From a virus, in the IMG/VR virus record IMGVR_UViG_3300022743_000214, positions 1 through 61,597 of that record: a stretch of DNA of 61,597 bases; one strand, 5' to 3'. The notes under the pieces were generated by a model, which made no database searches, had not been told where the DNA came from, and worked only from the letters and a program-made list of their open reading frames with translations. Positions within the stretch are counted from its first letter, which is position 1, and every line of letters begins with the position of its first letter. A program made the translations under genes and the position numbers. Below, in pieces: positions 2,027 to 30,620 of the stretch.

Positions 2027-3283
2027 ATGCAAATGCCGTACAACCGCCCCCATCTGAAGACCCTCGAAGCTCGACTCAATGAACATCCCAAGTTCATGAT
2101 CGTTGTAGCCGGGCCGCGCCAAATTGGCAAGTCAACTATGGTCCGCCAGGCTCTGGCGGGTCGCCCTTCTACCTTTGAAGCCACGGATCAGTCAGCAACT
2201 ACCACCGTCGACCCATTCAGCGATGCCCCAAGCACCATTCAGGCAGAGCCAGGGGCAAAAGCCACAGAAAAATGGATCATCAACAGGTGGACACAGGCTC
2301 GAGCCAAAGCCCGATCATTGCCCCCCGGGCAATTCCATGTCCTGGCCATCGATGAGATCCAGAAAATTCCCCGATGGTCAGAGGTCGTCAAGGGGCTGTG
2401 GGATGCTGACCGTGCTGAGCAAGTTCCTCTGCACGTCGTGCTGCTAGGGTCATCGCCGTGGCTCATGCAAAAAGGGCTGACCGAAAGCCTGGCTGGGCGC
2501 TATGAGCCCATCCACATGTCGCACTGGTCCTACGGCGAAATGCAGGAGGCTTTCGACTTTTCACTGGACGAGTACATCTACTTCGGCGGGTACCCAGGTG
2601 CAGCCAGCTTGATCCGCGACGAAACCCGTTGGCGTCAGTACGTCCGAGATGCACTGATCAAGCCCAACATCGAGAGTGACATCCTGCAGATGACCCGGGT
2701 CGAAAAGCCTGCTCTCTTGAAGAACCTGTTCGAGCTGGGCTGCGGCGCTTACTCAGGGCAACTGGTCGCCCTGACGAAATTGCTAGGCCAACTCCAGGAT
2801 GCAGGCAACACAGTCACTCTGGCCCATTACCTGGATCTACTCTCACAAGCGGGTTTGCTGACAGGCCTGCAAAAGTACGCGGGGCAAGAGCTGCGCAGGC
2901 GAGCATCTCCACCCAAATTCAATGCCCACAACACGGCCCTGATTTCTGCTCAGGCCAAGTACACGTTCGAACAGGCCAAAAACGACCGCACGTACTGGGG
3001 ACGACTGGTTGAAAGTGCCGTTGGCAGCCATCTGATCAACAACAAGCCGGAAAACTCCAGCCTGTATTACTGGCGGGAGAGCCCCAGTGAGGTGGACTTC
3101 GTACTGACCGATGGCGAAAAGCTGTTGGCCATTGAGGTCAAGAGCGGGGATGACTATGCCGCCCCCAAGGGCCTACAGATCTTTGCCGAAAAGTACAAAA
3201 ATGTCACCCCAATGGCGGTGGGAGCCGATGGCGTTGCCATTTCCGACTTCCTGCTGCAACCGGTTGAAAGCTGGATGAAGTAA
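2027..3283 (+). CDS. AAA_14/DUF4143-type ATPase with C-terminal PD-(D/E)XK-like motif
   Basis: A 418-aa ATPase of the AAA_14 plus DUF4143 architecture. Walker A is GPRQIGKS at residues 29-36; Walker B is the hydrophobic run ending in Asp-Glu at 109-110. The C-terminal DUF4143-type domain carries Asp357 and Glu370-Val-Lys372, the spacing of a PD-(D/E)XK nuclease fold. Family members are widespread with poorly known function, and many occur in defence or toxin contexts. The stop codon is followed immediately by the ATG of the STAND gene, so the two are almost certainly co-translated. The ATG at 2027 is used; an in-frame ATG two codons later (2033) is an alternative. Confidence 0.85.
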   Translation: MQMPYNRPHLKTLEARLNEHPKFMIVVAGPRQIGKSTMVRQALAGRPSTFEATDQSATTTVDPFSDAPSTIQAEPGAKATEKWIINRWTQARAKARSLPPGQFHVLAIDEIQKIPRWSEVVKGLWDADRAEQVPLHVVLLGSSPWLMQKGLTESLAGRYEPIHMSHWSYGEMQEAFDFSLDEYIYFGGYPGAASLIRDETRWRQYVRDALIKPNIESDILQMTRVEKPALLKNLFELGCGAYSGQLVALTKLLGQLQDAGNTVTLAHYLDLLSQAGLLTGLQKYAGQELRRRASPPKFNAHNTALISAQAKYTFEQAKNDRTYWGRLVESAVGSHLINNKPENSSLYYWRESPSEVDFVLTDGEKLLAIEVKSGDDYAAPKGLQIFAEKYKNVTPMAVGADGVAISDFLLQPVESWMK

Positions 3284-11556: not shown

Positions 11557-12881
11557 TGGGACACACGCAATACAAGGAGCTGGACAGCTCGGGGGTCTCC
11601 TGGTTGCAGAAAAAGCCCAGCCACTGGCGAATCAAGAAGCTGAAATTCTCAACTGATCTCATCAACAACAAAGTAAGCGTCGAAGATTCGCCATTGCCTT
11701 ATCTCGGCCTGGAACACATCGAATCATGGACCGGAAGAAAGATCGAGGGTGAAATTAGCAATAGCGAAGGCCTGGCATCGTCGTTCGTAGTGGGTGATGT
11801 CCTCTTCGGGAAGTTGCGCCCATATCTCGCCAAAGTTCACTTGGCTCAGCAGGATGGACTGATTTCGAGCGAAGCATTGGTGGTAAGAAGTAAGGATGAG
11901 CTGGATGCCGAGTTTTTGAAGTACTACATGCTGTCTCGTGACTTTATCAATATTGTGGATTCTTCAACCTATGGCAGCAAGATGCCGCGAGCAAGTTGGG
12001 ATTTCATTAGAAACCTTCCGGTCCTGTTGCCAGATGTAGAAGAACAAAAGGTCATTGCCCGTTTCCTCGATTTCAAAACCGCACAAATTGATGCCCTGAT
12101 CGCAAAGAAAAAATCACTGCTCGACAAACTGGCCGAAAAGCGCACGGCGCTTATCAGCCATGCCGTCACCAAGGGGCTTGATCCGTCCGTGGCGATGAAG
12201 GATTCAGGGGTGCCTTGGCTTGGGAACATTCCAGCGCATTGGGATGCAAAGCGCCTTAAATTTGTCATTTCAACCTTCGGAGGTGGAACGCCAAACACAG
12301 GCAAGCCAGAGTATTGGAATGGGGAAATTCCTTGGGTGTCGCCTAAGGATATGAAATCTGACTTCATTGAAGCGACTGAGGACTACTTGACTGAAATAGG
12401 CGTGGCGGAAAGCGCAACGAAGATCGTGCCGGTTGATTCGGTTTTGATTGTTGTCAGGTCAGGAATTCTGCGTCACACAATTCCTGTGGCCCGCAATACG
12501 GTTGAAGTCTCCCTGAATCAGGACATGAAGGCGCTTGTTGCCGACGAGCGATTGCGTCCAGGCTTTTTACATTGGTTTATCAGTGGACTTCAGGAAGGGC
12601 TTCTGCCGATTTGGAGCAAGCAGGGTTGCACTGTTGAGAGCATTGAAATGGATTACATGAGCAATACGGTAATCCCGCTGCCGCCTGTTGAAGAGCAGGA
12701 TGCGATCTTGGAGAAGATACAAGAAATCACCGCAAGATTAGATGCTCAGGCAGAAAAGGTCATCGCGGTGATTTCCTCTCTCATTGAGTATCGAAGCTCC
12801 TTAATAACGCACGCCGTGACAGGCAAAATCGACGTGCGCGGTTTTGCGACTCCGCATTCCGCCGAAGGGATTGCCTTATGA
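11553..12881 (+). CDS. hsdS: Type I restriction system specificity subunit HsdS
   Basis: A 442-aa specificity subunit with two target-recognition domains, each starting from a Ser-Gly-Val-x-Trp-Leu segment (near residues 12 and 217) and each followed by a long conserved helix with Leu-Leu-x-Lys or similar coiled-coil spacer (about 170-200 and 395-425). The two TRDs read the two halves of a bipartite DNA site. It lies between hsdM (4-base overlap) and a 200-aa gene. TRDs vary freely, so the target sequence cannot be read from the protein. Confidence 0.95.
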   Translation: MMGHTQYKELDSSGVSWLQKKPSHWRIKKLKFSTDLINNKVSVEDSPLPYLGLEHIESWTGRKIEGEISNSEGLASSFVVGDVLFGKLRPYLAKVHLAQQDGLISSEALVVRSKDELDAEFLKYYMLSRDFINIVDSSTYGSKMPRASWDFIRNLPVLLPDVEEQKVIARFLDFKTAQIDALIAKKKSLLDKLAEKRTALISHAVTKGLDPSVAMKDSGVPWLGNIPAHWDAKRLKFVISTFGGGTPNTGKPEYWNGEIPWVSPKDMKSDFIEATEDYLTEIGVAESATKIVPVDSVLIVVRSGILRHTIPVARNTVEVSLNQDMKALVADERLRPGFLHWFISGLQEGLLPIWSKQGCTVESIEMDYMSNTVIPLPPVEEQDAILEKIQEITARLDAQAEKVIAVISSLIEYRSSLITHAVTGKIDVRGFATPHSAEGIAL

Positions 12882-12897
12882 ATGGAGGCAGAGCCCA

Positions 12898-13500
12898 ATG
12901 GCGTTGAATGCACAAGGCTATTTCAACTGCCTGAAGTCCTATCTGAACATCAACCACTACGGCGAGCCGCAGGCGAGTGGCAGTGAGGTGGTGCTGAAGG
13001 AAAAGGTGTTCGGCCAAAGTGGTACCAGGCCCATTGAGTACAAGGTGAGCTTGCAGACCACCGGCGAAACCTTGGTGATCAAGCTGGACGCCAAGAAGAA
13101 TGGCTCATCGTTGCCGCTGTTTCACTTTCTGGACGATACCGCCAAGCCCTGGTCGAAGCGCTGTGACTTCGTGGTGTTCAACCTGCGTAGGAACAAGCTG
13201 CATGTGTACTGCCTTGAGTTCAAGTCAGAGAGCATTCCGCACGACGTACCAGATCAGTTGAAAGCCAGTGTGGATTGGCTCAAGGCGCTGCACGCCACCA
13301 TCAATGCCTACACCACTAAACGCAGCGCCATCCACGCGACCAAGTATGTGCTGAGCAACCATCCCGACCCGACGCCATATCTGGATGCGGATGGAAAGTA
13401 CCTGCAGCGCGATCACACGATACGCCACTATCGTTATGCCGACCTCAACGGCATGGCGCTGGCGAATTTGGACAACAGCAATATTGAGGTGATTCGCTAA
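12898..13500 (+). CDS. Unknown protein (200 aa) between hsdS and hsdR, PD-(D/E)XK-like motif
   Basis: ATG at 12898 is preceded by GGAGG at normal spacing; a longer frame would overlap hsdS without a ribosome site. Residues 89-109 contain Cys-Asp90 on a hydrophobic strand, a turn, then Glu107-Phe-Lys109, the Asp...Glu-x-Lys pattern of PD-(D/E)XK nucleases. The protein is soluble with no membrane segment. The family is not recognised by name. It sits in the hsd operon 16 bases after hsdS and 35 bases before hsdR, so it may be an accessory of the restriction complex. Nuclease activity is an inference. Confidence 0.75.
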   Translation: MALNAQGYFNCLKSYLNINHYGEPQASGSEVVLKEKVFGQSGTRPIEYKVSLQTTGETLVIKLDAKKNGSSLPLFHFLDDTAKPWSKRCDFVVFNLRRNKLHVYCLEFKSESIPHDVPDQLKASVDWLKALHATINAYTTKRSAIHATKYVLSNHPDPTPYLDADGKYLQRDHTIRHYRYADLNGMALANLDNSNIEVIR

Positions 13501-13535
13501 TAGGCGGAATCCGACGCATTTCAAGGGTGAGAAAG

Positions 13536-16500
13536 ATGCACAAAGAAATCGATTTTGAAAACGACATCGAGCACGCACTGATCAGCAGCGGCGGCTACGA
13601 AAAAGGTGATCCCAACACCTACGACCCGGAAGCGGCACTGTTTCCGGCGGATGTCGTTGCCTTTGTGCAGAAGACGCAGCCCAAGATCTGGACACGCCTG
13701 ACGCAGCTGGACGCGGCCAAAGCGCCCGCGATGCTGCTGGACAGCCTGGTGAAAGAGCTTGCTGCCAAAGGCGCCCTAGCGATCTTGCGCGAAGGATTTA
13801 AGTGCGTTGGCAAGACGGTGCGGCTGGCCTACTTTGCGCCCAACACCGGGCTAGACCCCGCAAGTACCGAGCGATACGACGACAACCGTTTGACCATCGT
13901 GCGGCAGGTTAACACCAAGAGCGGGGCTATCCCTGACGTGGTGTTGGCGGTGAATGGCTTGCCCGTGGCCACGCTGGAGCTGAAGAACCCGATGTCGGCC
14001 ACGCGCTGGAACGTGGAGAACGCGAAGCACCAATATCGCTTTGAGCGAGACCCCAAGGAATTGTTGTTCGCTTTCAAGCAGCGTTGCCTGGTGCATTTTG
14101 CCGTGGATACCGAGCTGGTGTTCATGACCACCAAGCTGGAGGGCAAAGACACGTTCTTCCTACCCTTCAATCTGGGGCATGACCACGGCGCGGGCAACCC
14201 GCCAGCAGCGGGCGATGTGCGCACCACCTACCTGTGGCACAAGGTGTTGACCCGTGACAGCCTGATGGACATCTTGGCCCGCTTCATCCATTTGGATGTC
14301 GAGGAAAAGACGGTCGTCACTGAAAAGGGTATCAAGCGTCACCGCAAGGAATCTATGATCTTCCCGCGCTATCACCAGCTGGATGCGGTTCGGGCACTAA
14401 CCGACCACGCGCAGGCGCATGGTTCGGGGCACAACTACTTGATTCAACATTCCGCTGGCTCAGGCAAATCGAACTCAATTGCGTGGCTGGCGCACCGCCT
14501 CTCAAGCCTGCACGATGCCAACAACGAGAAGATCTTTCATTCGGTGGTCGTGATCACCGACCGGCGCGTGCTTGATCAACAGTTGCAGGACACCATATTC
14601 CAGTTTGAGCATAAGCTGGGCGTCGTGCAGAAGATCGACGAAAACACACAGCAATTGGCAAAGGCGCTGGCCGATGGCGTGCCGATCATCATATCCACCA
14701 TCCAGAAGTTTCCCTTCATCACCCAAGCCATCCGCACGATGGAGGCCAACGGCAAAGGGGTGGCCATCTCGACAGCGGGCAAGCGCTTCGCGGTGATCGT
14801 GGACGAGGCGCACAGCTCGCAAAGTGGTGAAACCGCAATGGAGCTACGCAAGATCCTAAACAAGGATGGTATTGAATCCGCGATTGCCGAGCAGTTGTTG
14901 GACATGGATGACGATGCCTTGAGCGAAGAGGCAAAGAAGGAGCTGCTGCGTGAACAACTCAAGCGAGCCAAACAACCCAACTTGAGTTTCTTTGCCTTCA
15001 CCGCAACGCCCAAGTTCAAGACACTGGCTGTTTTCAATGAACCCGGCCCCAACGGCAAAGCGCCTTTCCACCACTACAGCATGCGGCAGGCCATCGAGGA
15101 AGGCTTCATTCACGACGTGCTGGCCCACTACACCTGCTACAAGCGCTACTACAAGCTGATCCAGAAGGTGGAGGCAGATCCAGAGGTGCCGCGCCGAAAG
15201 GCCGCCCGCGCGTTGGCGCGGTTCGTCGAGTTTCACGACTACGAGATCGCGCAGAAGGTCGAAGTGATCGTGGAGCACTTCCGCACCCATACCCGCCACA
15301 AGATTGGCGGCCGGGCCAAAGCGATGGTGGTTACTGGCTCGCGTGAGCACGCTGTGCGCTACAAGCTGGGGTTTGATAAGTACATCAAGGACAAGAGCTA
15401 CACCGATGTGAAATCGCTGGTGGCGTTCTCCGGAGAAATCACCCTCAAGGAGTTCGCCGATAAAAAATTCACCGAAGTCAGCATGAACAACGGCATCAAG
15501 GAATCCGAGCTGCCGGAGAAGTTCAACACCGAGGAATACCAAGTCTTGCTGGTGGCCGAGAAGTACCAGACGGGTTTTGACCAACCGCTGTTGCACAGCA
15601 TGTATGTCGACAAACGCTTGTCTGGCATCCAGGCGGTACAGACACTCTCGCGCCTGAATCGAACGACGCGGGGCAAGACCGACACCTTCGTGCTCGATTT
15701 TGTAAACGAGCCTGCGGACATTTACACCGCCTTCAAGCCGTATTACGAAGCGACAGACAAGGGCGACGATACCGACCCACAACAGCTCAACACGCTGGCA
15801 CACACGCTAGCCAACTGGAAAATCTATACCGAAGCCGAGGTCAGTGCTTGGTGCGAGATCTGGTTCCGCAACCGGCTGAACCCCACGGGCGGCGAGCACA
15901 AGAAATTGAATGGTCTGCTCGATCTGGCGATTGAGCGATTCAAGAAACTTGGGGAAGAAGACCAGAACCTGTTCAAAGGGCAACTGGTCAGCTTCCGCAA
16001 TCTGTACAGCTTTGTTTCACAGATCGTGCCTTACCAGGATTCCGATCACGAGAAGTTGTACACCTACGCCCGTTTCCTGCTGACCAAGCTGCCACGCACG
16101 ACGGACAACCGGACAGTGCAGGTCGACGATGAAGTCGAGCTCAAGTACTACCGCCTGCAAAAAATCAGCGAGGGGGCGATTGATCTGAAGGCGGGCGAAG
16201 CGGATGCGCTTGAGGGCCCGACCGACGTAGGCACAGGTCAAGCAGACGAGGATGTACAGCTTTCGACCTTGGTTGGCAAGCTCAATGATCGCTTCGGAAC
16301 AGAGTTCACTCCTGCAGACCAGCTCTTCTTCGATCAAGTCCGTGAAACCGCCGTAGCCAATGAACAGTTGCGACAGGCCGTCTTGGCCAACAGCATCGAA
16401 AACTTCGAACCCGTATTTAACAAGCAGCTCGAGAACCTGTTCATCGAGCGCATGGACGGCAACGAAGAAATCTTCGTGCGCCTAATGAACGATGAGGCGT

Positions 16501-16577
16501 TTAGGAATGTTGCGGCGAGCCACCTGATGCGTGCTGTGTACCAACAAATCCGAACATCCGGCAAGAACGGCGGGTGA
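13536..16577 (+). CDS. hsdR: Type I restriction endonuclease subunit HsdR
   Basis: About 1013 aa. The N-terminal nuclease domain shows Asp134 and Glu148-Leu-Lys150 (PD-(D/E)XK). The superfamily 2 translocase follows, with Walker A SAGSGKS near residues 306-312 and a DEAH box at 423-426. Further helicase motifs and a long C-terminal helical region complete the usual HsdR layout and length. HsdR cuts unmethylated DNA after ATP-driven translocation. ATG at 13536 is chosen because AAGGGTGAG lies just upstream; a GTG nine bases earlier is in frame. The TGA stop overlaps a GTG that could start the next gene. Confidence 0.96.
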   Translation: MHKEIDFENDIEHALISSGGYEKGDPNTYDPEAALFPADVVAFVQKTQPKIWTRLTQLDAAKAPAMLLDSLVKELAAKGALAILREGFKCVGKTVRLAYFAPNTGLDPASTERYDDNRLTIVRQVNTKSGAIPDVVLAVNGLPVATLELKNPMSATRWNVENAKHQYRFERDPKELLFAFKQRCLVHFAVDTELVFMTTKLEGKDTFFLPFNLGHDHGAGNPPAAGDVRTTYLWHKVLTRDSLMDILARFIHLDVEEKTVVTEKGIKRHRKESMIFPRYHQLDAVRALTDHAQAHGSGHNYLIQHSAGSGKSNSIAWLAHRLSSLHDANNEKIFHSVVVITDRRVLDQQLQDTIFQFEHKLGVVQKIDENTQQLAKALADGVPIIISTIQKFPFITQAIRTMEANGKGVAISTAGKRFAVIVDEAHSSQSGETAMELRKILNKDGIESAIAEQLLDMDDDALSEEAKKELLREQLKRAKQPNLSFFAFTATPKFKTLAVFNEPGPNGKAPFHHYSMRQAIEEGFIHDVLAHYTCYKRYYKLIQKVEADPEVPRRKAARALARFVEFHDYEIAQKVEVIVEHFRTHTRHKIGGRAKAMVVTGSREHAVRYKLGFDKYIKDKSYTDVKSLVAFSGEITLKEFADKKFTEVSMNNGIKESELPEKFNTEEYQVLLVAEKYQTGFDQPLLHSMYVDKRLSGIQAVQTLSRLNRTTRGKTDTFVLDFVNEPADIYTAFKPYYEATDKGDDTDPQQLNTLAHTLANWKIYTEAEVSAWCEIWFRNRLNPTGGEHKKLNGLLDLAIERFKKLGEEDQNLFKGQLVSFRNLYSFVSQIVPYQDSDHEKLYTYARFLLTKLPRTTDNRTVQVDDEVELKYYRLQKISEGAIDLKAGEADALEGPTDVGTGQADEDVQLSTLVGKLNDRFGTEFTPADQLFFDQVRETAVANEQLRQAVLANSIENFEPVFNKQLENLFIERMDGNEEIFVRLMNDEAFRNVAASHLMRAVYQQIRTSGKNGG

Positions 16578-16591
16578 CGAGATTGGTCACG

Positions 16592-17494
16592 ATGAAATTA
16601 CTCGCAATTGATGGTGGTGGAATTCGCGGAATCTATGCTAGCCATGTCCTGGAGCGCATTCAGCAGGAATTCAATATTGCATTTCACAGTGAATTCGATC
16701 TGATTGCTGGCACGAGCACTGGTTCTATCATCGCCGCCGCGATTGCATTTGGCATTCCGATTTCAAAGGTTACAGAGCTTTATCGTGAAAAAGGGCCGAG
16801 TATCTTCAGACCGAAGAGGTGGACATTCGGCGGCACCGTTGCCCCTCGCTATTCGAGCGAGCCGCTGCGTGCGGCTTTGTTTTCTGTTTTTGAAGATGCA
16901 ACGCTCGCTGATGCACAAACAAGGCTTGTTATCCCTGCGACAGACATCGGCAATGGTGGCGTGCATGTTTTCAAGTCGGCATACGACGAGAAGTTTGTTC
17001 GCGACCGCAACGTGAAGGTCGTTGACGCTGTATTGGCTTCTTGCAGTGCGCCATCCTACTTCGCTCCATCGAGAGTGGGCCCGTATCAGTTGAGCGACGG
17101 CGGGCTATGGGCGAACAACCCTTCGTTGGTTGCAGTCACCGAAGCACTTACCCGCCTCGGGGCGGAGCGCTCCGCGATTCGGTTGTTATCTGTAGGAACG
17201 GGTATTGGCAAGAACTACTACCCGATCTCTAATGCGGATAAAAAATGGGGATTCCTGACTGGCTGGGGGATCTCCAAGTTCATTTCCATGCTCTTGAATC
17301 TCCAAGCGGCAACGGCCAGCAATGTCACACAGCTCATTTTGGACAAGCATCAGTCCGTGAGGGTGAATTTCGAATCAGATCTGCCTTTATCACTTGATGA
17401 TGTTGGCACCCTCGATGATTTGATAAGCCGAGCAGACAAGGACTTCACACATAACTCAGCGGCCATTCGGCAGTTACTTGGAGGGAATCAATGA
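16592..17494 (+). CDS. capV: CBASS effector, CapV-like patatin phospholipase
   Basis: About 300 aa. From ATG 16592 the protein opens with the oxyanion-hole motif DGGGIRG (residues 7-13), followed by the nucleophile elbow GTSTG with Ser42 and later the catalytic DGG Asp before Leu-Trp-Ala-Asn-Asn-Pro. This is the patatin fold of CBASS CapV phospholipases, which degrade inner-membrane phospholipids when a cyclic nucleotide binds. A GTG at 16574 overlaps the hsdR stop and is an alternative start. It overlaps the CD-NTase gene by 4 bases, which strongly supports the CBASS assignment. Confidence 0.9.
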   Translation: MKLLAIDGGGIRGIYASHVLERIQQEFNIAFHSEFDLIAGTSTGSIIAAAIAFGIPISKVTELYREKGPSIFRPKRWTFGGTVAPRYSSEPLRAALFSVFEDATLADAQTRLVIPATDIGNGGVHVFKSAYDEKFVRDRNVKVVDAVLASCSAPSYFAPSRVGPYQLSDGGLWANNPSLVAVTEALTRLGAERSAIRLLSVGTGIGKNYYPISNADKKWGFLTGWGISKFISMLLNLQAATASNVTQLILDKHQSVRVNFESDLPLSLDDVGTLDDLISRADKDFTHNSAAIRQLLGGNQ

Positions 17495-18828
17495 AGCTGA
17501 CCGAACATTTCAATACGTTCTTGGTTGACGTTATCAATCTCAACCAGACGCGCATTGACACGCTGAAAGCGCGCGTGGATGCCATCGTTACCGCTGTCGA
17601 AAGCTTTGATGTTTTTTCTGACATTCTGATCGATACGACACCACAAGGGTCGTGGGCGCATCGCACCATCATCAAGCCGGCCGGAATCGCAGGATCGTTT
17701 GACGCGGATGTGGTTGCTTTTGTAGATCCTCACGAAGAATGGACTCCGGCAGATTACATCGACCATCTGTATGACCAGTTCAAGGCGCACGGCACTTATT
17801 CTGACAAGGTGTCGCGCAAGACGCGTTGCGTAACGATTCAGTATGCGGGGGAGTTCTCAATTGATGTAGTGCCGTGTATCCGCAGAGCCAGCATTTGGGA
17901 AACCACGGAATGGATTCTGAATCGTAAGGATGACGTCGAAGAGCAGGCAAATCCTGATGGATATACAGAGTGGTTCTCACAGAGAAACGGGTATGTTGGC
18001 AACAACCAGTTGATCAAGGTTGTTCGGATACTGAAGTACCTGCGCGATTTCAAACTGACATTTTCAGCCAAATCAATTCTGCTGACGACGTTGATTGGTG
18101 AACGCATCTCTTGGCTTGACGAGCTGGGGAATGAATTCTCAGATACGCCAACTGCGCTCCGGACAGTTATCAAGAGACTGGACGCATACCTGCAACAGAA
18201 CCCTGATATGCCAGAGATCGTAAACCCCAAGCTGCCGTCAGAGTCGTTCACAAGGCACTGGGATCAAGACAAGTACACCAACTTCCGAGCCTGTATCAAC
18301 CGCTACGCCGAATGGGTTGAAGATGCTTACGTTGAGACAGATCGTGAAGAGAGCATCGTTAAATGGCGAAGGATTTTTGGTGATGATTTTGCAAAGTCAG
18401 TTGTTCTCACCAAGGCTGCCAATCTGGTCGAAACGCAGATTGATGATGTATCTCATGTTACCCGGCCGCCATGGCCAGTCTTGCCAGCTGGACGAATTGA
18501 AATCACTGCGACACTACATTCTTCCAAGGAAGGAAATTTCCTAGGAACCTACCGCTCTGATGGACCTGCTTTGTCGCCGGACACTTGGCTTCACTTCAGT
18601 GCAAAGCACTCTTTCACAAATGGCATAGCGATTAAATGGCAAATCGTTAATACGGGCTGGGCGGCAAGGGCTGCGAGGTGCCTCAGGGGTGGATTCGATC
18701 ATTCTGGTTCAGAGATATGGGAGCACACACTTTACAGGGGAAAACACTGGGTCGAGTGTTTCGCTGTCGATTTGAAACGAGGCGTATGCCTTGCTCGAAG
18801 TGACCGCTTCTACGTCAACATTTCATAG
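17491..18828 (+). CDS. CBASS cyclic oligonucleotide synthase (CD-NTase) with C-terminal sensor-like domain
   Basis: A 445-aa nucleotidyltransferase. Gly53-Ser54 and the metal-binding Asp71 and Asp73, with a third Asp at 125 on the next strand, form the catalytic core of the DNA-polymerase-beta-like CD-NTase fold. A helical OAS-type C-lobe follows to about residue 320. The last 120 residues form a beta-rich domain resembling the AGS-C sensor domains found on some SMODS/CD-NTases. It would make a cyclic di- or trinucleotide during infection to activate the adjacent patatin. The product cannot be told from sequence. Its start overlaps capV. Confidence 0.9.
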   Translation: MKLTEHFNTFLVDVINLNQTRIDTLKARVDAIVTAVESFDVFSDILIDTTPQGSWAHRTIIKPAGIAGSFDADVVAFVDPHEEWTPADYIDHLYDQFKAHGTYSDKVSRKTRCVTIQYAGEFSIDVVPCIRRASIWETTEWILNRKDDVEEQANPDGYTEWFSQRNGYVGNNQLIKVVRILKYLRDFKLTFSAKSILLTTLIGERISWLDELGNEFSDTPTALRTVIKRLDAYLQQNPDMPEIVNPKLPSESFTRHWDQDKYTNFRACINRYAEWVEDAYVETDREESIVKWRRIFGDDFAKSVVLTKAANLVETQIDDVSHVTRPPWPVLPAGRIEITATLHSSKEGNFLGTYRSDGPALSPDTWLHFSAKHSFTNGIAIKWQIVNTGWAARAARCLRGGFDHSGSEIWEHTLYRGKHWVECFAVDLKRGVCLARSDRFYVNIS

Positions 18829-21595: not shown

Positions 21596-22966
21596 TTAGG
21601 CAGAGACGACTGGAATTGGAAATGGCTTAACCGATTGGCTTTGCATCGCAGCGGGTTCTTGTTCAAACCCAAAGATGTCCTTGCGATCAAGTCGTAATTC
21701 ACCATCGATGTGAACAGGGATCAGTCCCGTTAGAAACTCAATGCCAGCTGCGAAGATGGGCAGCGCATCAGAATAGGCGTTATCACACGACGCATCCCAA
21801 AGCGGGCCTTCCAGAAACATGCAGGCCCCTTTGCAGATCTGCACGACAGGGCACTTCGGACACTCTGTTCTTTTGGACCAGTGGGTTGATGTCGTGAGCC
21901 CTACATCGCCCAACTGGGATGTATTACCAATGCAATGGCTCTGACCATTAGGTGCCGAGGCAGATGCGCTGACGTTTTGGCAGGTCAACACATTGCCTGT
22001 GAGATCCACGGCGATGGAATCAGATTGATCCATACCGCACTTTTGGCTCAGACTAGACGCTGGGCGTTTGGTTCGCAATGAGTTCACAAAAGACATCATG
22101 CGGTCGCGGACACTCGAAATACGATCTGCCCGACCATGCCGAATGTCCTGAAACGCCTGACGGCGATAAGCGTGAAACTCCTCAGGCTTCAGTGACAAAG
22201 CAAGGCCACCAGCGTCATAGGCATCTACGAATCCGCCCTCTCCTATCATCACCTTTGGGTCTCCTGTGATTTCAGTGAAGAAGGCCTGAATGGCTGCTCG
22301 AGACTGGTTGGATCGATTGACCATGGCGTTGAAGCTGAAACGCCCCTGAGGGGCGAGTCGCTGGTACAGATCAAGAATTGCTTGTCGGGCTTCAGGGTCT
22401 TGCAATGGATCAGGCCCGCGAACGTGTTGTCCAGGTCCATCGTGTGAAACGCTGACCGTAAAGCCCAGTTCATCCAACCACTGATTCAGCTCCAAGTTGA
22501 GCAAAGAACCATTGGTGATCACTGAGAACCTGGCCAATGGGTACTTCGCCCTCAAGGCCTCAGCCAAGGGTTTCAGGGTCTTGATGTAGACCAATGGCTC
22601 ACCACCCCAAAACTCAATGGCCTCAGTCGGGGTCAATACCCAGCTATCCAGAGTGTTCAGAAAACCTTTCACGTCCTCAGGATTGGTTTCAGAGGCCCGG
22701 GCCACGAAGCGCTGAGAGCAATATTCACAAGCGTAGTTGCAGGACAGGCCAAGAGAGATTTTGAGGATGCGAGGGGATGTTTTCCCAAGCGGAGTGTCTT
22801 TCGAGACCACGGGTGCGATGCCACCGTCACTTTGCACTACGGTATCCACAGTACGAATCACGGAATTGCCCTGAATGTCAGTCAGGGTCGATTCCATGTT
22901 GTCGTAAATCAGCGGCATGACAGAGTTTTTTCTTGGGTCTGCTGCGGCAATCAGAAATTTAGCCAT
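21596..22966 (-). CDS. Radical SAM/SPASM peptide-modifying enzyme
   Basis: A 456-aa protein. The radical SAM cluster motif Cys76-x3-Cys80-x2-Cys83 is followed by Gly-Gly-Glu-Pro (121-124) and Asn-Gly-Ser. The C-terminal SPASM domain has the full seven-Cys pattern: Cys310-x13-Gly-x4-Cys329, then Cys369-x2-Cys372-x5-Cys378-x3-Cys382 and Cys394, giving two auxiliary 4Fe-4S sites. SPASM enzymes typically act on peptides or proteins (anSME, RiPP maturases). It overlaps the oxygenase gene by 8 bases and lies downstream of a Cys-rich tail fibre, so the substrate is probably a virion protein (inference). The reaction type is unknown. Confidence 0.9.
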   Translation of the reverse strand: MAKFLIAAADPRKNSVMPLIYDNMESTLTDIQGNSVIRTVDTVVQSDGGIAPVVSKDTPLGKTSPRILKISLGLSCNYACEYCSQRFVARASETNPEDVKGFLNTLDSWVLTPTEAIEFWGGEPLVYIKTLKPLAEALRAKYPLARFSVITNGSLLNLELNQWLDELGFTVSVSHDGPGQHVRGPDPLQDPEARQAILDLYQRLAPQGRFSFNAMVNRSNQSRAAIQAFFTEITGDPKVMIGEGGFVDAYDAGGLALSLKPEEFHAYRRQAFQDIRHGRADRISSVRDRMMSFVNSLRTKRPASSLSQKCGMDQSDSIAVDLTGNVLTCQNVSASASAPNGQSHCIGNTSQLGDVGLTTSTHWSKRTECPKCPVVQICKGACMFLEGPLWDASCDNAYSDALPIFAAGIEFLTGLIPVHIDGELRLDRKDIFGFEQEPAAMQSQSVKPFPIPVVSA

Positions 22967-23576
22967 CGTGTCTTGCTACCTTGATGTTGAGTAATACCTG
23001 CATGAAGGGGATGTCTCCCATGTACGGCTTTTGGAAATGGACGGCCCTGGCATCGAAGGCCACCAGCAATCCCCTGTGGGGTTTGATCCAGAACTTGGCA
23101 TGGGTTTCCCATGGCATCAAGCATTTGCCAAACCCTGAGGAACGCCAGTCTGGATTGCAGATCGCGAATGCGTTGGGACCGTACTGGTTGACCTGCTTTT
23201 GCAGATCTCTGAGAGGATCCAGCTCAGCGCCGTTTGGGAAATACACAGCCTGCAGATGACATTCGTCTTCGTCAGAGTGCGGCATGATTTCCACACCAGC
23301 CGTTCGAACCACTTCGCGTCCTTGCAGATTCGTGATGCGCCCTTGCGGTCCGATGAATTCATGTTGAATCAACGTGAGCACGTTGGAGGCTAGTTGATTG
23401 GCGCTTGGGATCGTTCCATCGAAGATGTTGTGGGACTGACGATTCCAGATCTCACCGCCCTCAGTTTTCATGGAAGCATGGACAGCCAGTAAATCGTCGT
23501 AGAGCTTCTGGTCAAACGCTGGATCAGAGTCCAGTGACCAAAGCCCCACCGTGGTGGGGAACAGCTCTAACCTCAT
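22959..23576 (-). CDS. Fe(II)/2-oxoglutarate-dependent oxygenase-like protein
   Basis: A 205-aa protein with His100-Ser-Asp102 and a distal His180 in the context Ala-Val-His-Phe-Gln-Lys-Pro-Tyr, the HxD...H facial triad of Fe(II)/2OG oxygenases. A basic residue about 20 positions later (Lys199 or Arg202) could bind 2-oxoglutarate. Such phage proteins often fall in 2OG-FeII_Oxy-type families. It overlaps the upstream 286-aa gene by 4 bases and the radical SAM gene by 8, so all three are translationally coupled. Hydroxylation of a tail protein is the simplest guess. Substrate unknown. Confidence 0.75.
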   Translation of the reverse strand: MRLELFPTTVGLWSLDSDPAFDQKLYDDLLAVHASMKTEGGEIWNRQSHNIFDGTIPSANQLASNVLTLIQHEFIGPQGRITNLQGREVVRTAGVEIMPHSDEDECHLQAVYFPNGAELDPLRDLQKQVNQYGPNAFAICNPDWRSSGFGKCLMPWETHAKFWIKPHRGLLVAFDARAVHFQKPYMGDIPFMQVLLNIKVARHDG

Positions 23577-24430
23577 AGAACACTCACCACCAGGTCATCC
23601 GTGCCCGAGAAGAACTTAAAACCCACCTTAATCTTGGACGTGTTGCCAGAGACCATGCCATCTGGACGGAAAGTGGTGGAACCAGCACCCTTCACAGTAG
23701 TGATGCGTCGGCCCACAAGATAGCCCGCAGTTGAGTCGAGGTAGATCTCAGCATCGCGGTCAGTGATGGGAGTTCCATCAGCAGTTTCAAGCTGAAAATT
23801 CACAGCCACTTCACCATTCGCGGCGATCTCAACCACCTTACTTCCCACAAAGCGAACCACAGGCAAAGTTTCATCGCGCACCAAAGCCAAGGTGATTGAT
23901 GGGATCACTTCAATGTTCTTTGATGCTATAACCAGCTCAGGACTGAAAACATTGAACCCTAGTGACCAATCCTCAAGGGGAGAGCTTTTGAATGGAACCA
24001 AGATCTGACCAATGGGGTGCGATTGCAGAACAGAGGCGTGATAAGCCTGAGCATCCATCTTGGAGGCAAGGGTTGCAACATAAAGATTGGGCGTCTGCGT
24101 GAAGAACCCATCCGGCGTTGTGTACCGCGCCATCACACCCACAGGGGCGTAGAGCATGAAGCTCGCATGATCGCCAAATTCTGGATGCTGTGTGAGCGTT
24201 TGAAGATCCAAAGTTCGCTGATACACAGGCTCACCCATGACCCCAAAGTCACCTCGCCATTCAGTGATCAATCCCTGATCAAAGTATTTCCCACCACTGG
24301 GGTGATCCTTGGTTGAGTCGCCAACAAACTCTCGTTGCATGATGGCTCTGACAGCAAATGCCAGAGTTGTATCGGCCAAGGTGACATCCAGCGCAAAGGG
24401 TGGGTTCTTATTGCCTAGGTAAAGTTTCAT
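23573..24430 (-). CDS. Phage tail-associated protein with Ig-like C-terminus
   Basis: About 285 residues from ATG 24430, which has GGAG upstream; a GTG two codons earlier is less likely. It has no cysteine. The C-terminal about 90 residues look like a beta-sandwich (bacterial Ig-like) domain with Thr-Pro-Ile-Thr-Asp-Arg-Asp and Gly-Ser-Thr-Thr-Phe strands. The N-terminal part is unrecognised. It sits between the Cys-rich fibre gene and the oxygenase gene. It could be a fibre cap, chaperone or virion decoration. Function unknown. Confidence 0.6.
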   Translation of the reverse strand: MKLYLGNKNPPFALDVTLADTTLAFAVRAIMQREFVGDSTKDHPSGGKYFDQGLITEWRGDFGVMGEPVYQRTLDLQTLTQHPEFGDHASFMLYAPVGVMARYTTPDGFFTQTPNLYVATLASKMDAQAYHASVLQSHPIGQILVPFKSSPLEDWSLGFNVFSPELVIASKNIEVIPSITLALVRDETLPVVRFVGSKVVEIAANGEVAVNFQLETADGTPITDRDAEIYLDSTAGYLVGRRITTVKGAGSTTFRPDGMVSGNTSKIKVGFKFFSGTDDLVVSVL

Positions 24431-24439
24431 ATTCACTCC

Positions 24440-25366
24440 TTAGCAGCAGTTGCAATCGCAATTGCAGTTGTACCGAGTGCCATAAGCACCCAAACGAAGC
24501 GTTCCACCTTGGTCAAACAGCGTGACCAGGTTGTAGTAGGCGTAAGGAGCTTGATCGCCGCAGTTGTAGCAGTTATCCGTGATCTGACAGTTGGGCGCAC
24601 CCTGCCAACCCGAAGTAGGGTTGTTGTTGACGCGAACGCAGTTGCTCACCACGTTGAAGAAGTAATCCTGGAGCCACCCGTAGTTACATGTCCACAACGA
24701 CCCTGAGTTGTTCATGTACATGTCCCAGCTGCCATCGGATCGGAGAAACCCCATGAGACCACCGTTGTGGTGCAGGTAACGGGTTCCCCAGTCCTGATCA
24801 ACCATGTCGATGTAGTTCGCCGTGCTGGCAATCTGCAACCTTGGAACGGTCAACGTGCCCGACATGGTGTCGCCCGTCTTGGCGACGCGACTGGACAAGT
24901 CAATCGGAATGGATGAGTTGCCATTGGCATCAGGCCCTACCCCGTTCACCGAGCGAACAAATGCAGTGGAATCAATGCCATCTAACTTGTCAGCGTCTGC
25001 CGCCTTCGCTGTTATCCCCAAATACGCGCTGTTGTGGTTGTGACCAATCGCTGCATACGCTGAGTCGTGGTTGTGGCCCGACAGCGCAAAGCCAGAAGAA
25101 GCGATGCCACCCAGCAAATCAGAGTTTGGAGCCTTGCTGACCGTGCCAGACAAATCAATGACCATCTTCCACGTGGCAGGACTCACAACGGTCAGGACAT
25201 AGAGCTTTTGCTCGTCTGTCTTGAAACAAGGCATACCCAACTGAAGGTTGACCGTTGGGAACGATGTGCCGCTGTTGAGCGACATAGCAGTCTTGTCGTT
25301 GTTCAGGATCTGAGACAACGAATCCGACAGCGTGGTCGAAGATTGAATTTCGGTGTAGTTCTGCAC
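24440..25366 (-). CDS. Tail fibre protein with Asn-Cys-rich C-terminus
   Basis: A 308-aa protein with GTG start (25366) preceded by AAGGG. Residues 97-116 hold two Gly-His-Asn-His-(Asp/Asn)-Ser-Ala-Tyr repeats and then Ala-Asp-Lys-Leu-Asp-Gly, typical of lambdoid side-tail fibres. The C-terminal third has ten cysteines, seven of them in Asn-Cys pairs, and the protein ends in NCNCDCNCC (300-308). Cys is otherwise rare (one residue before position 220). The N-terminus probably joins the tail; the C-terminus would be the receptor-binding tip. The extreme Cys tail next to two peptide-modifying enzyme genes suggests it is modified, metal-binding or disulfide-linked. Confidence 0.85.
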   Translation of the reverse strand: MQNYTEIQSSTTLSDSLSQILNNDKTAMSLNSGTSFPTVNLQLGMPCFKTDEQKLYVLTVVSPATWKMVIDLSGTVSKAPNSDLLGGIASSGFALSGHNHDSAYAAIGHNHNSAYLGITAKAADADKLDGIDSTAFVRSVNGVGPDANGNSSIPIDLSSRVAKTGDTMSGTLTVPRLQIASTANYIDMVDQDWGTRYLHHNGGLMGFLRSDGSWDMYMNNSGSLWTCNYGWLQDYFFNVVSNCVRVNNNPTSGWQGAPNCQITDNCYNCGDQAPYAYYNLVTLFDQGGTLRLGAYGTRYNCNCDCNCC

Positions 25367-25377
25367 TTATTACCCTT

Positions 25378-26568
25378 TTAATATCCTTGTGCAACCCAAG
25401 AAATCAGCCCCGTCATCCGGGTGCCTGATGTGTTTTCAAGAACTGCTGTGAATCCCGTGGTGCTGACAGAGCCAAGAATCCGTGGCACTGCAACTGAAGT
25501 GCCGCCTTTAAAAGTCATCGTGACTTCAGGAGACACCCTGAACAACCGGGCGAAAGACACACTCACGCCATTAGCGGCATTGCTGATGGAGGCGGTTCCT
25601 CGGTCGAAGATGTCTGGCACATCCACCGTGACCCTGAGCCCATCGATGTAGCCGCGATCGGCATTGCTTGAAGTCAGGATGGCTCTGAACAGCGCCCTTT
25701 GGTAGGTGTAGTCACCTTGGATGAAATCCCTGAAGCTGGTGTACCCGGGTGGGTGGCCAGCCTCAAAGATGTCCAGGAAATCCTGATCGGTGATCTCCGT
25801 GGTTGCGAACAAGATGTCACTCACAACCCCGTTGGCATGACGCCTGTACTGTTCGGCCAGAGCAAAAGCTTCACTGAGCTTTAAGGTTTGTGCACGCTTT
25901 AGGCCTTCAGCAAAACTGAACCCCTCAGCCAATGCCAGTTTGTAGGCAATCGTTCGCCCAAAGGCTTCAGCAAAACTCATCGCCTCGCTGATGCTTTTGA
26001 TCTGGCGTTTGGAGATTGCATCGTTTGTTGCAAACGATTCGGCAAACGGCTTGGTGTTGACCTTGGCCGCAACTTCGCCAAACGACAAACTCTCCGCCAC
26101 ACGCAAGATGTAAGCGATGAGGTCTGTGTAGGTTTCGGCGATCGAGATCGTTTCGAACTTCTTGAGAATGACGCTGCGCATCAATCCTTCAGAAATCTGA
26201 AACGACTCCATGACCGCTTTGATGTTCGCGTTGGAAATCTTCTCGCCAAAACTCATACTCTCCACGAATCGAATCGTGTAAGCGATCAGATCGGTGTAGG
26301 TCTCCAAAAACGAAAACACTTCAAACTTCTGAATAACCACCGAACGAGACGAGCCTTCAGCAAACACCATGTATTCGGTCAACGCCTTGATTCCCAGCTT
26401 CTGGCTCAGCTCAGCAAAGCTCAGATCGGTTGCAACGCTTAAGGCATAGACCGCAGGATAGGCTGTGGTCCAGTTCTTACCGGCAGCAGCACTTGACCAA
26501 TTGAACTTGGAGCCTGCCCAGTTGTAGTTCGTACCAGGCGTGCTTGTGACGTTGACAACCTCAGCCAT
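25378..26568 (-). CDS. Tail-tip protein with tandem about 18-residue repeats
   Basis: A 396-aa protein. Residues about 45-235 consist of imperfect repeats of about 18 residues built on Glu-Ser-x-Ser-Phe-x-Glu, grouped in longer 56-residue units that share the segment Thr-Tyr-Thr-Asp-Leu-Ile-Ala-Tyr. The C-terminal 150 residues are beta-rich and end in a conserved-looking Gly-Leu-Ile-Ser-Trp. Likely a tail fibre or shaft protein lying between J and the fibre genes. The repeats would form a long helical or fibrous rod. The exact family is not recognised. Confidence 0.65.
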   Translation of the reverse strand: MAEVVNVTSTPGTNYNWAGSKFNWSSAAAGKNWTTAYPAVYALSVATDLSFAELSQKLGIKALTEYMVFAEGSSRSVVIQKFEVFSFLETYTDLIAYTIRFVESMSFGEKISNANIKAVMESFQISEGLMRSVILKKFETISIAETYTDLIAYILRVAESLSFGEVAAKVNTKPFAESFATNDAISKRQIKSISEAMSFAEAFGRTIAYKLALAEGFSFAEGLKRAQTLKLSEAFALAEQYRRHANGVVSDILFATTEITDQDFLDIFEAGHPPGYTSFRDFIQGDYTYQRALFRAILTSSNADRGYIDGLRVTVDVPDIFDRGTASISNAANGVSVSFARLFRVSPEVTMTFKGGTSVAVPRILGSVSTTGFTAVLENTSGTRMTGLISWVAQGY

Positions 26569-27095: not shown

Positions 27096-30000
27096 CTAGT
27101 AAAGCTTCAGAGATGAATATCCACTTGCAGGTGGATAAGCACCCACGGCACTTTGCATATCAGTTCCCATCTTGGCGACAAAGAGTCTCCTCTCACTCGC
27201 TGTCTGGCAGACACCGATGCACACCCGGTCGTTCGCACTGATCGCATAGGGCACAACGATGCGGTTAAAGAGCGCATCTTCCAAGAAGAAAGCTCCAGCC
27301 ACGCTGTCGTATCCAACCAGCAAACTCACAGACGCACCGGTGGCAGTCCAGATCACACAAGTGGTGACTTGTGCTGGTACGTACCAAAAGCTCGCATGGA
27401 AAATTCCCGGAATGCTCACTCCCCAGGACACCTTGGTGGTGTCTTTGACCAACACCCCACTGCCATATCGGCCATTGCCATAGCTCACGCCTGTGGCTTC
27501 ACCAGCACTTGGACTGCCGTAACCGCTCAGGTCACCATTCAACCTCAAGCCGTAGATTTCTCCCGCTTGCAAAGTGTCCTCGCGGGCCATCTGAAACCGT
27601 GCATCAATGCTTTTGAGAGCACCGTCATAGGTCCATTGCCTCTTGGCAGCAAGGTCGCCCCAGTTGTAGTTGGCACTTCCCCAGGTCTCTCGGTCATCCA
27701 GCGTTGCACCAATGCTGGCCAACAAGGTGTTCTGCGCTCGGTAGCTTGTGGGGAGCATCACATCAAAGAGGTACTCCGACTGGGCAACCCCACTGTCCAT
27801 CCGTAGAACATTCAACCCATTGACCGACTCCACTGAAGCGAAGTGCTTGATGCCCGGAAAATTCGTAGCCTGTGAATCCACCGTCACCAGTAAATTGGCG
27901 TTTTGCGGTTGTGCAACCACCGTGGATACGAAGGTCGCATCATCCGAATAGATGCCTGGTGAAGCAATGGCTTTGATCCAGAAGTTGCGCTCACCATCAA
28001 AGCCTGATGGCAAGGTGTAACTACTGGACTTAACTTCCGCGATGAAGATTGAGGTGTCCCAAGCGGTGCCCTCACGCAGCTCATAGGCCACGACCTCAGG
28101 TTCAGGGTTTGGCAACCACCGAAACTCCAGTCGATTCGCCGACTGCACCACATCAAACTGACGCACCGCACTTGGAGCCAGGAGCACCAGCTGAAACGTG
28201 GTGACGTTGGTGCTGTACTTGCCCGAGGTGTCAAAGGCGCGGATGTAATAGTTGTACTGCCCTGACGCGCTCTGGTCATGCACGAGCTGCGTGCCCGCAG
28301 TTTGCGCAACCAAATCTGCACTGTCCCAACCACTGCCAACCCGAACCTCATAGCCCGACAGATCTGCATCGGTGTTAGCAGTCCAACTCAGAAGCAAGTC
28401 CGTCGTGCGGCGCATCACCACAAAACCCTGCACATCGTCCGGAGGCATCAACTTGCCAAGAATCGTCTGATTCAGCGTTGTTGCATTGCCTTGCTTGCCA
28501 GAGACTCCTACCGCCCTGACTGTGAAAACATAGTCGCCGGTATCGGCATTGCGGATTTCAAGGTAGTTGTTTGAGACCCTTGGAAGGTTGACGGTGTTGC
28601 CGCCATTGACGCGGTAGCTCACCTGGTATTCCAGCGCACCGAACACCTGCTCCCAAGCCACCTGGATCAAGACAAGCGCCTGATCCTTGACTCGGTACAG
28701 ACTCTCATTGACCACCAGCCCCGTGGGAGCCTGAGGTGCAGTAGACAAGACCGTGATGCTTCGACTTTGCAGCGCAAGGCCTTCTTCGATCGCATCGAAC
28801 TTGCTCGGGTTGTGAGCCAGTGCGGTGACCTCATGCACACCGGGCTCACTCTCCGTGACCTGTACCACCCTAAAGAGTTGAGGCTGGACCTGCGTTGAAG
28901 CCAGCACCCAGATAGCTCCACTTTGGGGTGTCTCTGTGAACGGACTCGTGACCCCTAAGGTTCTGCCGTTGTTGGAGCCAACTTGCCGCTCCTGCACAGT
29001 ACCGCTGGGCGTGATGACAGAGATCGTCCAATTGCCTGCAGGCAAGTCCTGGTCGAGCGTCACACTCACGGTGGTGGCAGCGGCAACGCGACCACCCAAG
29101 CGCATACCGCCTCGCCCCGGGTCGGCCACCTTGATCACATCGCCTGGTCGAACCACGACCCCTTCGAGCCCTGTTCGGAAAGTGGCGATTTCAGATTCGG
29201 ACTGCTCCGAATACAGCAACCACTTGCCAACACGGTTAGCTTGACCCCGGGAAGTACAGCCAAAGGCCACCACATCGGCTTGCACGACGCCATAGCGGGC
29301 AATGCCTGCCATGTCTTCGACGTACTCTACCTTCTGACGGTAAAAGTCATCCGGGTCACACCAAGTGACAAGTGCCACGGTGTGACGAGTTTTGGCAGAA
29401 GACCCTTGGTACGAGAAGTCTCCCCCTACCACGTTGGCTGCTGTGAACTGATACACCGGATCCTGCGGTGCATCTTGTGTCACCGTGATCGAGCCACCCG
29501 CCCAGTAAGCCAGCCCCCTAAAAATGGAGGCCATGTCTTGCACGACTTTGTAGGCTTGTTCACGAGTTTGCAAATACAGGTTGCAGGTAAAACGTGGCTC
29601 ATAGCCACCGTGGCCATCCGGCACTAATTCATCACAGTATTTGGCGGCCCGGTACAAAGCCCACTTGTCCACCTGTGAGGCTGCAATGTAGGAACCCAGG
29701 CCATACCGTGAATTGGTCACCAGGTCATAGAAACACCAGGCGGGGTTGTCTGACCATGCAATCTTGAACAAGCCATCCCACACCCCGACATAGCTTCGAG
29801 TCTCAGGGTAGTAGTTCGATGGGATCTGAACTTTAAGAAGTTTGAGGTCATAGCTTCGCTTGGGGATGCTTGAGAACTGAGAAGCATCGACCCTGAGCGC
29901 CATCAAAGCACTGTTGGGGTATCTCAACTTACTCTCAATGACCTCTGTGTAGGACTCCAGAAAAGTCTTGTTTTGTACATTGACCTCGGTGGAGTCTGCC

Positions 30001-30620
30001 GTGATACGACGCAGCCGAATATCCCATGGGCCATTACCAGCCAAAGGGATGTAGTAGCTGCGCTGGTACTTGGTCGTGGTCTTTCCCGAGACAGTGTCAT
30101 TGACCACTTGGACAAATCCCGCACCGTTGGACTGAAGGTCAATGGCAAAGTTCACCGAAGTTCCGGTGAGGTCCCCAGTGGAAGGGTTTTGGTAGGAAAG
30201 AACAGGAATGCTAACCTTGACCCGAACGGCATCCACATCCGAATCGCTGATTGTGCGAACCACCGCCTGCGAGTACTTGGCCTCGACCCCGACCGAGATT
30301 TCGTTCTCAACAGATGAAAACCCCGGCACATAGCTTTGTTGCTGTGTACCGTTACGGGTTTCAAGCGTGACGCCTGTGAAGTTGAAGCTTCCATCGGCAT
30401 TGAGGATGGGCGTTTCATCCAGGTACACCGAGGCCAGGCCATTGGGCAATCCTTCGATTTCACCTTCGCACACGAGATCGACCACCCGTGCATAGGCTTT
30501 GGAACGCAAACTGTCGGGGGATTCTTGCGCCACTCGGGAGCTTGAACCTCCGCTTTTGCCGCCACCACCTGCGCCGCTGATCAACTTTGAATCAACTGTG
30601 GAATTTGAATCTGCACTCAT
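27096..30620 (-). CDS. J: Tail tip protein J (lambda gpJ-like host-specificity protein)
   Basis: An 1174-aa protein. The Gly/Ser-rich N-terminus, the Val-Val-Asp-Leu-Val-Cys-Glu-Gly-Glu-Ile-Glu-Gly-Leu segment and the long beta-rich body match the TipJ/gpJ central tail fibre hub. Two or three fibronectin type III-like domains occupy about residues 630-960. The C-terminal about 200 residues are probably the receptor-binding part and vary most. gpJ sits at the tail tip and decides the host. The ATG overlaps the gpI gene by 4 bases. Confidence 0.95.
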   Translation of the reverse strand: MSADSNSTVDSKLISGAGGGGKSGGSSSRVAQESPDSLRSKAYARVVDLVCEGEIEGLPNGLASVYLDETPILNADGSFNFTGVTLETRNGTQQQSYVPGFSSVENEISVGVEAKYSQAVVRTISDSDVDAVRVKVSIPVLSYQNPSTGDLTGTSVNFAIDLQSNGAGFVQVVNDTVSGKTTTKYQRSYYIPLAGNGPWDIRLRRITADSTEVNVQNKTFLESYTEVIESKLRYPNSALMALRVDASQFSSIPKRSYDLKLLKVQIPSNYYPETRSYVGVWDGLFKIAWSDNPAWCFYDLVTNSRYGLGSYIAASQVDKWALYRAAKYCDELVPDGHGGYEPRFTCNLYLQTREQAYKVVQDMASIFRGLAYWAGGSITVTQDAPQDPVYQFTAANVVGGDFSYQGSSAKTRHTVALVTWCDPDDFYRQKVEYVEDMAGIARYGVVQADVVAFGCTSRGQANRVGKWLLYSEQSESEIATFRTGLEGVVVRPGDVIKVADPGRGGMRLGGRVAAATTVSVTLDQDLPAGNWTISVITPSGTVQERQVGSNNGRTLGVTSPFTETPQSGAIWVLASTQVQPQLFRVVQVTESEPGVHEVTALAHNPSKFDAIEEGLALQSRSITVLSTAPQAPTGLVVNESLYRVKDQALVLIQVAWEQVFGALEYQVSYRVNGGNTVNLPRVSNNYLEIRNADTGDYVFTVRAVGVSGKQGNATTLNQTILGKLMPPDDVQGFVVMRRTTDLLLSWTANTDADLSGYEVRVGSGWDSADLVAQTAGTQLVHDQSASGQYNYYIRAFDTSGKYSTNVTTFQLVLLAPSAVRQFDVVQSANRLEFRWLPNPEPEVVAYELREGTAWDTSIFIAEVKSSSYTLPSGFDGERNFWIKAIASPGIYSDDATFVSTVVAQPQNANLLVTVDSQATNFPGIKHFASVESVNGLNVLRMDSGVAQSEYLFDVMLPTSYRAQNTLLASIGATLDDRETWGSANYNWGDLAAKRQWTYDGALKSIDARFQMAREDTLQAGEIYGLRLNGDLSGYGSPSAGEATGVSYGNGRYGSGVLVKDTTKVSWGVSIPGIFHASFWYVPAQVTTCVIWTATGASVSLLVGYDSVAGAFFLEDALFNRIVVPYAISANDRVCIGVCQTASERRLFVAKMGTDMQSAVGAYPPASGYSSLKLY

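Follow-up and report, generated by a model that had tools for sequence, protein, structure and literature searches.

What does a radical S-adenosylmethionine (SAM) enzyme do at the end of a phage tail module, downstream of a tail fibre that ends in closely spaced cysteines? The question is raised by positions 1–61,597 of IMG/VR virus record IMGVR_UViG_3300022743_000214, a stretch of 61,597 nucleotides hereafter called the window. In it, a fibre gene is followed by genes for a protein with an immunoglobulin (Ig)-like domain, an Fe(II)/2-oxoglutarate (2OG) oxygenase-like protein and a radical SAM/SPASM enzyme. These four genes were found where the original prediction for this DNA had placed them, all on the minus strand, and the overlaps of 4 bases (23573–23576) and 8 bases (22959–22966) that it described were confirmed. 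We conclude that this cassette probably matures the tail-fibre tip post-translationally, with the radical SAM enzyme most likely forming thioethers. The basis is computational and comprises gene order, protein families and folds, co-occurrence across loci, and covariation between tip and enzyme.

Co-occurrence and covariation of the Cys run and the enzyme

The window fibre was confirmed to end in NCNCDCNCC and to contain ten Cys within its last third, seven of them as Asn-Cys, out of a total of 11. When this last third was shuffled, an xC run of at least four units was obtained in 82 of 20,000 trials. The association of such runs with the enzyme was followed in three search directions, which shared some contigs and whose samples are thus not fully independent. 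In the motif-first search, IMG/VR was scanned with a degenerate DNA pattern that encodes the Asn-Cys run and was devised without enzyme information; it returned at least 120 loci. Among the matches listed, to which all counts from this search refer, the run lay within 15 residues of the frame end in 89 loci, and in 74 of these the enzyme was encoded on the same strand no more than 6.5 kilobases (kb) away. Of the loci with over 3.5 kb of sequence available downstream, 58 of 58 had the enzyme, in every case downstream and on the same strand; they span 30 enzyme clusters at 70% identity. Loci with the pattern internal or out of frame mostly lacked the enzyme. The enzyme-first search yielded 80 loci in bacterial genomes, including Limnohabitans, Polynucleobacter, Burkholderia paludis and Thalassobius strains. 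The run was found in 47 of the 62 loci with enough upstream sequence (48 were counted, of which L213 was spurious), and shorter or interrupted runs in four more (L163, L166, L172 and L184) raised this to about 51 of 62. The base-first search, performed with a 73-residue base sequence composed from aligned relatives, found 40 loci; the Cys run ended every complete fibre except that of L289, a distant match of 41% identity, and the enzyme family was present for every fibre followed by at least 3.4 kb.

The original prediction had linked the Cys-tailed fibre to both enzymes. This association held for the radical SAM enzyme (58 of 58 listed loci motif-first, about 51 of 62 enzyme-first and all but one base-first), whereas the oxygenase proved optional (13 of 36 enzyme clusters). 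The enzyme accompanies the Cys tail so consistently that chemical maturation of the fibre tip is very probably its function, as judged from these sequence comparisons. The joint occurrence of run and enzyme across diverse loci likewise rules out chance or low complexity as the origin of the run, and the codons of the Cys tails vary (AAC/AAT and TGC/TGT), which also counts against low complexity. Across 32 distinct enzyme-linked tails, the residue preceding Cys within the run was Asn in 59%, Ala in 19% and Asp in 12% of positions. The other 138 Cys of the same tailed proteins were preceded by Asn in 71%, against an Asn background of 6.9%.

Covariation was analysed in 18 fibres of one base family by computing pairwise identities, with the tip defined as the last 100 residues. 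The Spearman coefficient between tip identity and that of the radical SAM enzyme was 0.91, compared with 0.52 for the Ig-like protein, the gene of which lies between tip and enzyme, 0.32 for the base, 0.16 for the upstream gene and −0.06 for the downstream lysozyme; as pairs are not independent, no P value is attached to these coefficients. Fibre pairs with bases more than 85% identical had enzymes 41–92% and tips 26–99% identical. Exchange of tip and enzyme as one unit would be expected to leave such a pattern. Block linkage alone was considered as its source and is unlikely, since neither the lysozyme nor the upstream gene tracks the tip.

The 14 close viral loci fall into two groups that differ in their oxygenases, and all have the Cys-tailed fibre except L008, in which tail-assembly gene sequence runs into the oxygenase, as if through a fibre deletion or a contig misjoin. 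A separate observation is that in L142 (5735–6775) the fibre frame passes into oxygenase-like sequence shortly ahead of the point where the Cys run would be expected, which resembles an assembly join. Among cultured phages, Achromobacter phages JWF and 2-1 encode a relative of the radical SAM enzyme, 51–52% identical, downstream of a fibre whose Hint domain comes after a Cys run (NCNCDCNCNCSC in JWF). Between their fibre and enzyme lies a different protein of 240 residues, and no oxygenase is present at the cassette position.

The run was C-terminal in 145 cases, preceded a Hint domain in seven, an S74 domain in three and another domain in two, counts that include repeat contigs; S74 follows the run directly in L051, L087 and L109. 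Hint and S74 domains are self-cleaving, and in these fusions the cut would be expected to leave the run with the fibre. Owing to this self-removal, the run would be the mature C-terminus there too, and we infer from this anatomy that the Hint and S74 fusions converge on a C-terminal run. Such fusions had been missed by the original prediction. The window fibre itself has no S74 or Hint domain according to Pfam and ends at the Cys run. It thereby differs from fibres with a Peptidase_S74 intramolecular chaperone, in which a C-terminal maturation element occupies the fibre end and in whose place the window fibre has the run. The fibre of Pseudomonas phage Itty13 shares a 67-residue stretch with the window fibre (50% identity) and ends in an S74 domain, near which no radical SAM enzyme of the cassette type is annotated.

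Several Cys-tailed proteins match tail-fibre families, and some loci encode short ones of 65–133 residues. Three such proteins (95, 92 and 115 residues), each ending in an Asn-Cys run, stand in tandem in L099 (4251–5179). Likewise, several proteins of L025 (173–6727) have an Asn-Cys tail, and this locus also has two radical SAM genes and, separately, a 136-residue protein that appears Hint-like by eye. In L031 (3054–11662), a 79-residue protein ending in DDYSTACNCNCNCNCTRGIL is found near four radical SAM-like genes, and similar peptides occur in L038, L081, L097 and L116.

Families and folds of the enzyme and its companions

The window enzyme matches PF04055 with 35.4 bits (cut-off 29.5) and phrog_1802 with an E-value of 1.7e-59; the latter is its family of radical SAM proteins, to which PHROGs assigns no substrate or role. 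The full SPASM set that had been reported is present as Cys 310, 329, 369, 372, 378, 382 and 394, each invariant in an alignment of 20 sequences, the others being 43–83% identical to the window enzyme. The best NCBIfam models were the peptide or protein maturases PapB, geopeptide and QhpD, together with viperin, all far under their cut-offs (55 bits against 340 for PapB model NF047865; 44.6 bits against 453 for QhpD model TIGR03906). With scores under the curated cut-offs, assignment of the enzyme to PapB, QhpD or another named maturase family was rejected. Among solved structures, 5wgg, which we take to be CteB, was the second-best match (1.8e-11), and sulfatase maturase 4k37 matched at 4e-10. 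Distant similarity to geopeptide and cyclophane maturases was also found. A second radical SAM gene is present in L059 and L085.

Other radical SAM loci were inspected. In those of Campylobacter phage CP220, Erwinia phage EarlPhillipIV and Enterococcus phage IME_EF3, no CxC-rich proteins were found in the stretches examined, and these candidates were set aside; in the first two (L220 and L221), other radical SAM genes lie near tail or structural genes, without CxC-rich neighbours. In the bacterial loci L192 and L207, the enzyme relative sits after apparent ABC-transporter genes.

Neither the oxygenase-like nor the Ig-like window protein has a direct family match in Pfam, NCBIfam or PHROG, and for the former no Pfam family was found up to an E-value of 0.1. 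Iterative profiles nevertheless grouped the 205-residue protein with 40 other proteins of these loci, some of which pass the 2OG-FeII_Oxy cut-offs, and the family profile matched 3bvc and 2rg4, both uncharacterised solved proteins, at about 1e-11. Its AlphaFold2 model (mean predicted local distance difference test score, pLDDT, 87.7) gave 162 PDB matches with E-values of 0.001 or lower, with prolyl hydroxylases dominating the top ranks. The fold is that of Pseudomonas putida prolyl 4-hydroxylase (4j25) and PHD2, with template modelling scores of about 0.5–0.6 at identities of 12–16%. The HxD...H gene noted earlier thus appears genuine, with a predicted prolyl-hydroxylase-type Fe(II)/2OG fold and its motif at H100, D102 and H180. 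Both His are invariant in 29 sequences, while position 102 is Asp in the window clade, D/E/H in most others and Ala in two. Because the main oxygenase family occurs in only 13 of the 36 clusters, it is a recurrent accessory and not a core part; two or three oxygenase genes are present at some of these loci (L123, L124 and L099).

The Ig-like family is commoner than the oxygenase (26 of 36 enzyme clusters), a more constant partner that the earlier description had overlooked. That description stands for the C-terminal part of the window protein, which alone is recognisably Ig-like, and not for its length, which is 287 residues from a GTG start instead of 286. The AlphaFold2 model has a pLDDT of 88.7, and Foldseek matches were mostly Ig-like domains; the family profile search gave no usable pattern.

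Proposed maturation of the fibre tip and its alternatives

In the proposed mechanism, the radical SAM/SPASM enzyme would act on the C-terminal (Asn/Asp/Ala-Cys)n run, with the other Asn-Cys motifs of the distal tip as probable further targets. The fibre is highly likely to be the substrate. Cys sulfur would most likely be joined to a carbon of a nearby residue (for Asn or Asp the β-carbon, the arrangement known from NxxcA and freyrasin), so that the tip would become a knob crosslinked by thioethers; as an assignment of chemistry in its own right, argued by analogy, we give the thioether about an even chance. Hydroxylation of residues in that tip is the probable task of the Fe(II)/2OG oxygenase where one is present, and its action on the fibre is moderately favoured. 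The Ig-like protein would be a companion that might present or cap the tip as a scaffold or escort. The mature fibre would terminate in the modified run, from the outset where nothing follows it and otherwise once a C-terminal Hint or S74 domain has removed itself, and this run could serve in receptor binding or tip stability.

Several known systems provide precedents. NxxcA contains a thioether between Cys23 and Asn20 formed via the β-carbon, in freyrasin Cys is linked to Asp, and QhpD produces Cys–Asp/Glu thioethers within a protein subunit (PMC8326336); PapB accepts a wide range of spacings (PMC9413430). The Asn-x-x-Cys spacing of NxxcA is found in NCNC, where a Cys follows each Asn at +3; NxxcA itself has a single link in a short peptide, unlike the multi-Cys run, and is likened here by spacing and not by enzyme kinship. 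The PapB/ranthipeptide maturases (NF047865, a model that matched 20 of 20 relatives scanned) and freyrasin likewise have a SPASM radical SAM enzyme beside a Cys/Asp-rich substrate, which is a small peptide there and is proposed to be a virion fibre here. QhpD, the quinohemoprotein amine dehydrogenase maturase, is a radical SAM enzyme like that of the window, but not viral. More generally, pathways for ribosomally synthesised and post-translationally modified peptides (RiPPs) place the substrate gene beside the modifying enzyme, a pairing repeated here with the fibre as the presumed substrate. RiPP precursors are short, with a leader and a core that is released, in contrast to a 308-residue fibre; among the Cys-tailed fibres, a cut can plausibly be expected only in those fused to Hint or S74.

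A number of observations weigh against tip maturation as formulated here. Chromosomal enzyme relatives at L192, L207, L209, L210, L212, L213 and L215 (364–405 bits) have no Cys run nearby, and both co-occurrence and covariation could derive in part from transfer as one block. Most enzyme clusters are without the oxygenase, and in the window clade the aligned position has no Arg of the kind that usually follows the second His, although another residue may bind 2OG in its place. As no curated maturase family was matched above its cut-off, thioether chemistry draws on distant homology and analogy. Finally, Ala before Cys, at 19% of run positions, misfits an Asn-type β-carbon bond, which suggests that not every Cys is linked in that way or that another carbon is used.

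Of the alternatives, the one closest to this proposal has the enzyme acting on the Cys run to give a product other than a thioether, such as epimerised residues, formylglycine, a carbon–carbon crosslink or a run made ready for metal or an Fe–S cluster at the tip of the fibre. The distant similarity to the sulfatase, geopeptide and cyclophane maturases would suit such a product, and alternating Cys are, as a matter of general knowledge, plausible as a metal ligand set. We regard it as unlikely, given that the strongest matches include the thioether formers PapB, QhpD and 5wgg and that a pure metal site would not need Asn to dominate before Cys. It is very improbable that the run works unmodified, through disulfides or metal, while the enzyme acts on another cassette protein or a small molecule. 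The chromosomal relatives that lack a run would fit this account, but the run predicts the enzyme (58 of 58 loci among the matches listed), and enzyme identity is tracked by the tip and not by neighbouring genes, with the Ig-like protein tracking the tip less (0.52). Despite the short tailed proteins (three in tandem in L099) and the self-cleaving nature of Hint and S74, there is hardly any likelihood that these domains or proteases of the host release the modified C-terminus to act as a diffusible signal or toxin akin to a RiPP, instead of leaving it on the virion, as the run lies fibre-side of the expected cut in the fusions and several tailed proteins match tail-fibre families.

Maturation of the fibre tip by this cassette is thus preferred, and it is rather likely to represent widespread viral machinery, in which crosslinked, hydroxylated tips are built in many phage lineages by radical SAM and 2OG enzymes dedicated to the task, and a tip is exchanged together with its enzyme as a host-recognition module. 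The original prediction knew of no described system of this type in a tail module, and none was found in the open-access literature, which included few preprints and in which absence is not proof: the texts searched nowhere describe the maturation of phage tail proteins by a radical SAM enzyme. Each component is of a kind already known; what the literature searched does not describe is their application to a structural protein of a virus, as a module of many phages. The range of bacteria that a phage can bind is set by its fibre tips. If radical-installed crosslinks are present, receptor-binding proteins would not be predictable from sequence alone, and tips made without the enzyme may be inactive. 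Radical SAM peptide chemistry, so far mostly of small peptides and a few enzyme subunits, would extend to virus particles, and many natural enzyme–substrate pairs would be available for study. Achromobacter phages JWF and 2-1 are cultured, as are host strains with related loci (Limnohabitans and Burkholderia paludis), which makes the proposal directly testable.

Cassette layout and other features of the window

On the minus strand, the gene for protein J is followed by those for a 148-residue protein, the 396-residue protein, the fibre, the Ig-like protein, the oxygenase, the radical SAM enzyme and further genes including the lysozyme (Table 1). Terminase, portal and lambda-type tail genes are found further upstream, so the window belongs to a tailed phage or prophage and the cassette forms the end of its tail module.

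Table 1. Positions of the cassette and its elements in the window.
Feature	Positions	Strand	Basis or remark
Tail tip attachment protein J	27096–30620	−	Pfam GpJ domain; puts the cassette in the tail module
396-residue protein directly upstream of the fibre	25378–26568	−	Outside the exchange unit; identity against tip, Spearman 0.16
Tail fibre, 308 residues; proposed substrate	24440–25366	−	Weak PHROG tail-fibre matches and relatives
Fibre base, residues 1–73	25148–25366	−	Conserved while tip and enzyme change
Distal tip (last third of fibre) with further Asn-Cys motifs	24443–24751	−	Cys count; covaries with the radical SAM enzyme
C-terminal Cys run NCNCDCNCC, residues 300–308	24443–24469	−	A run is present in every complete fibre whose base is closely related
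287-residue companion, C-terminal Ig-like domain	23573–24436	−	Family distribution, alignment, AlphaFold2, Foldseek
205-residue Fe(II)/2OG-dioxygenase-fold protein, HxD...H	22959–23576	−	Profiles, alignment, AlphaFold2 model
Radical SAM/SPASM enzyme, 456 residues; proposed tip maturase	21596–22966	−	PF04055 and phrog_1802 matches, alignment, co-occurrence
CX3CX2C SAM-cluster motif, residues 76–83	22718–22741	−	Invariant in 20 sequences
Seven-Cys SPASM domain	21785–22039	−	TIGR04085, 29.3 bits against a cut-off of 27

Elsewhere in the window, a pair resembling the cyclic oligonucleotide-based anti-phage signalling system (CBASS) was found on the plus strand at 16574–18828, comprising a phospholipase effector and an oligonucleotide cyclase (PADLOC E-values of 1.2e-93 and 3.4e-160). 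Type I restriction-modification genes for the methyltransferase, specificity and restriction subunits occupy 9319–16577. The PADLOC candidate defence protein PDC-S01 (6.4e-165) is encoded at 2027–3283 and is followed, up to 7306, by a 1340-residue protein without a PADLOC match.

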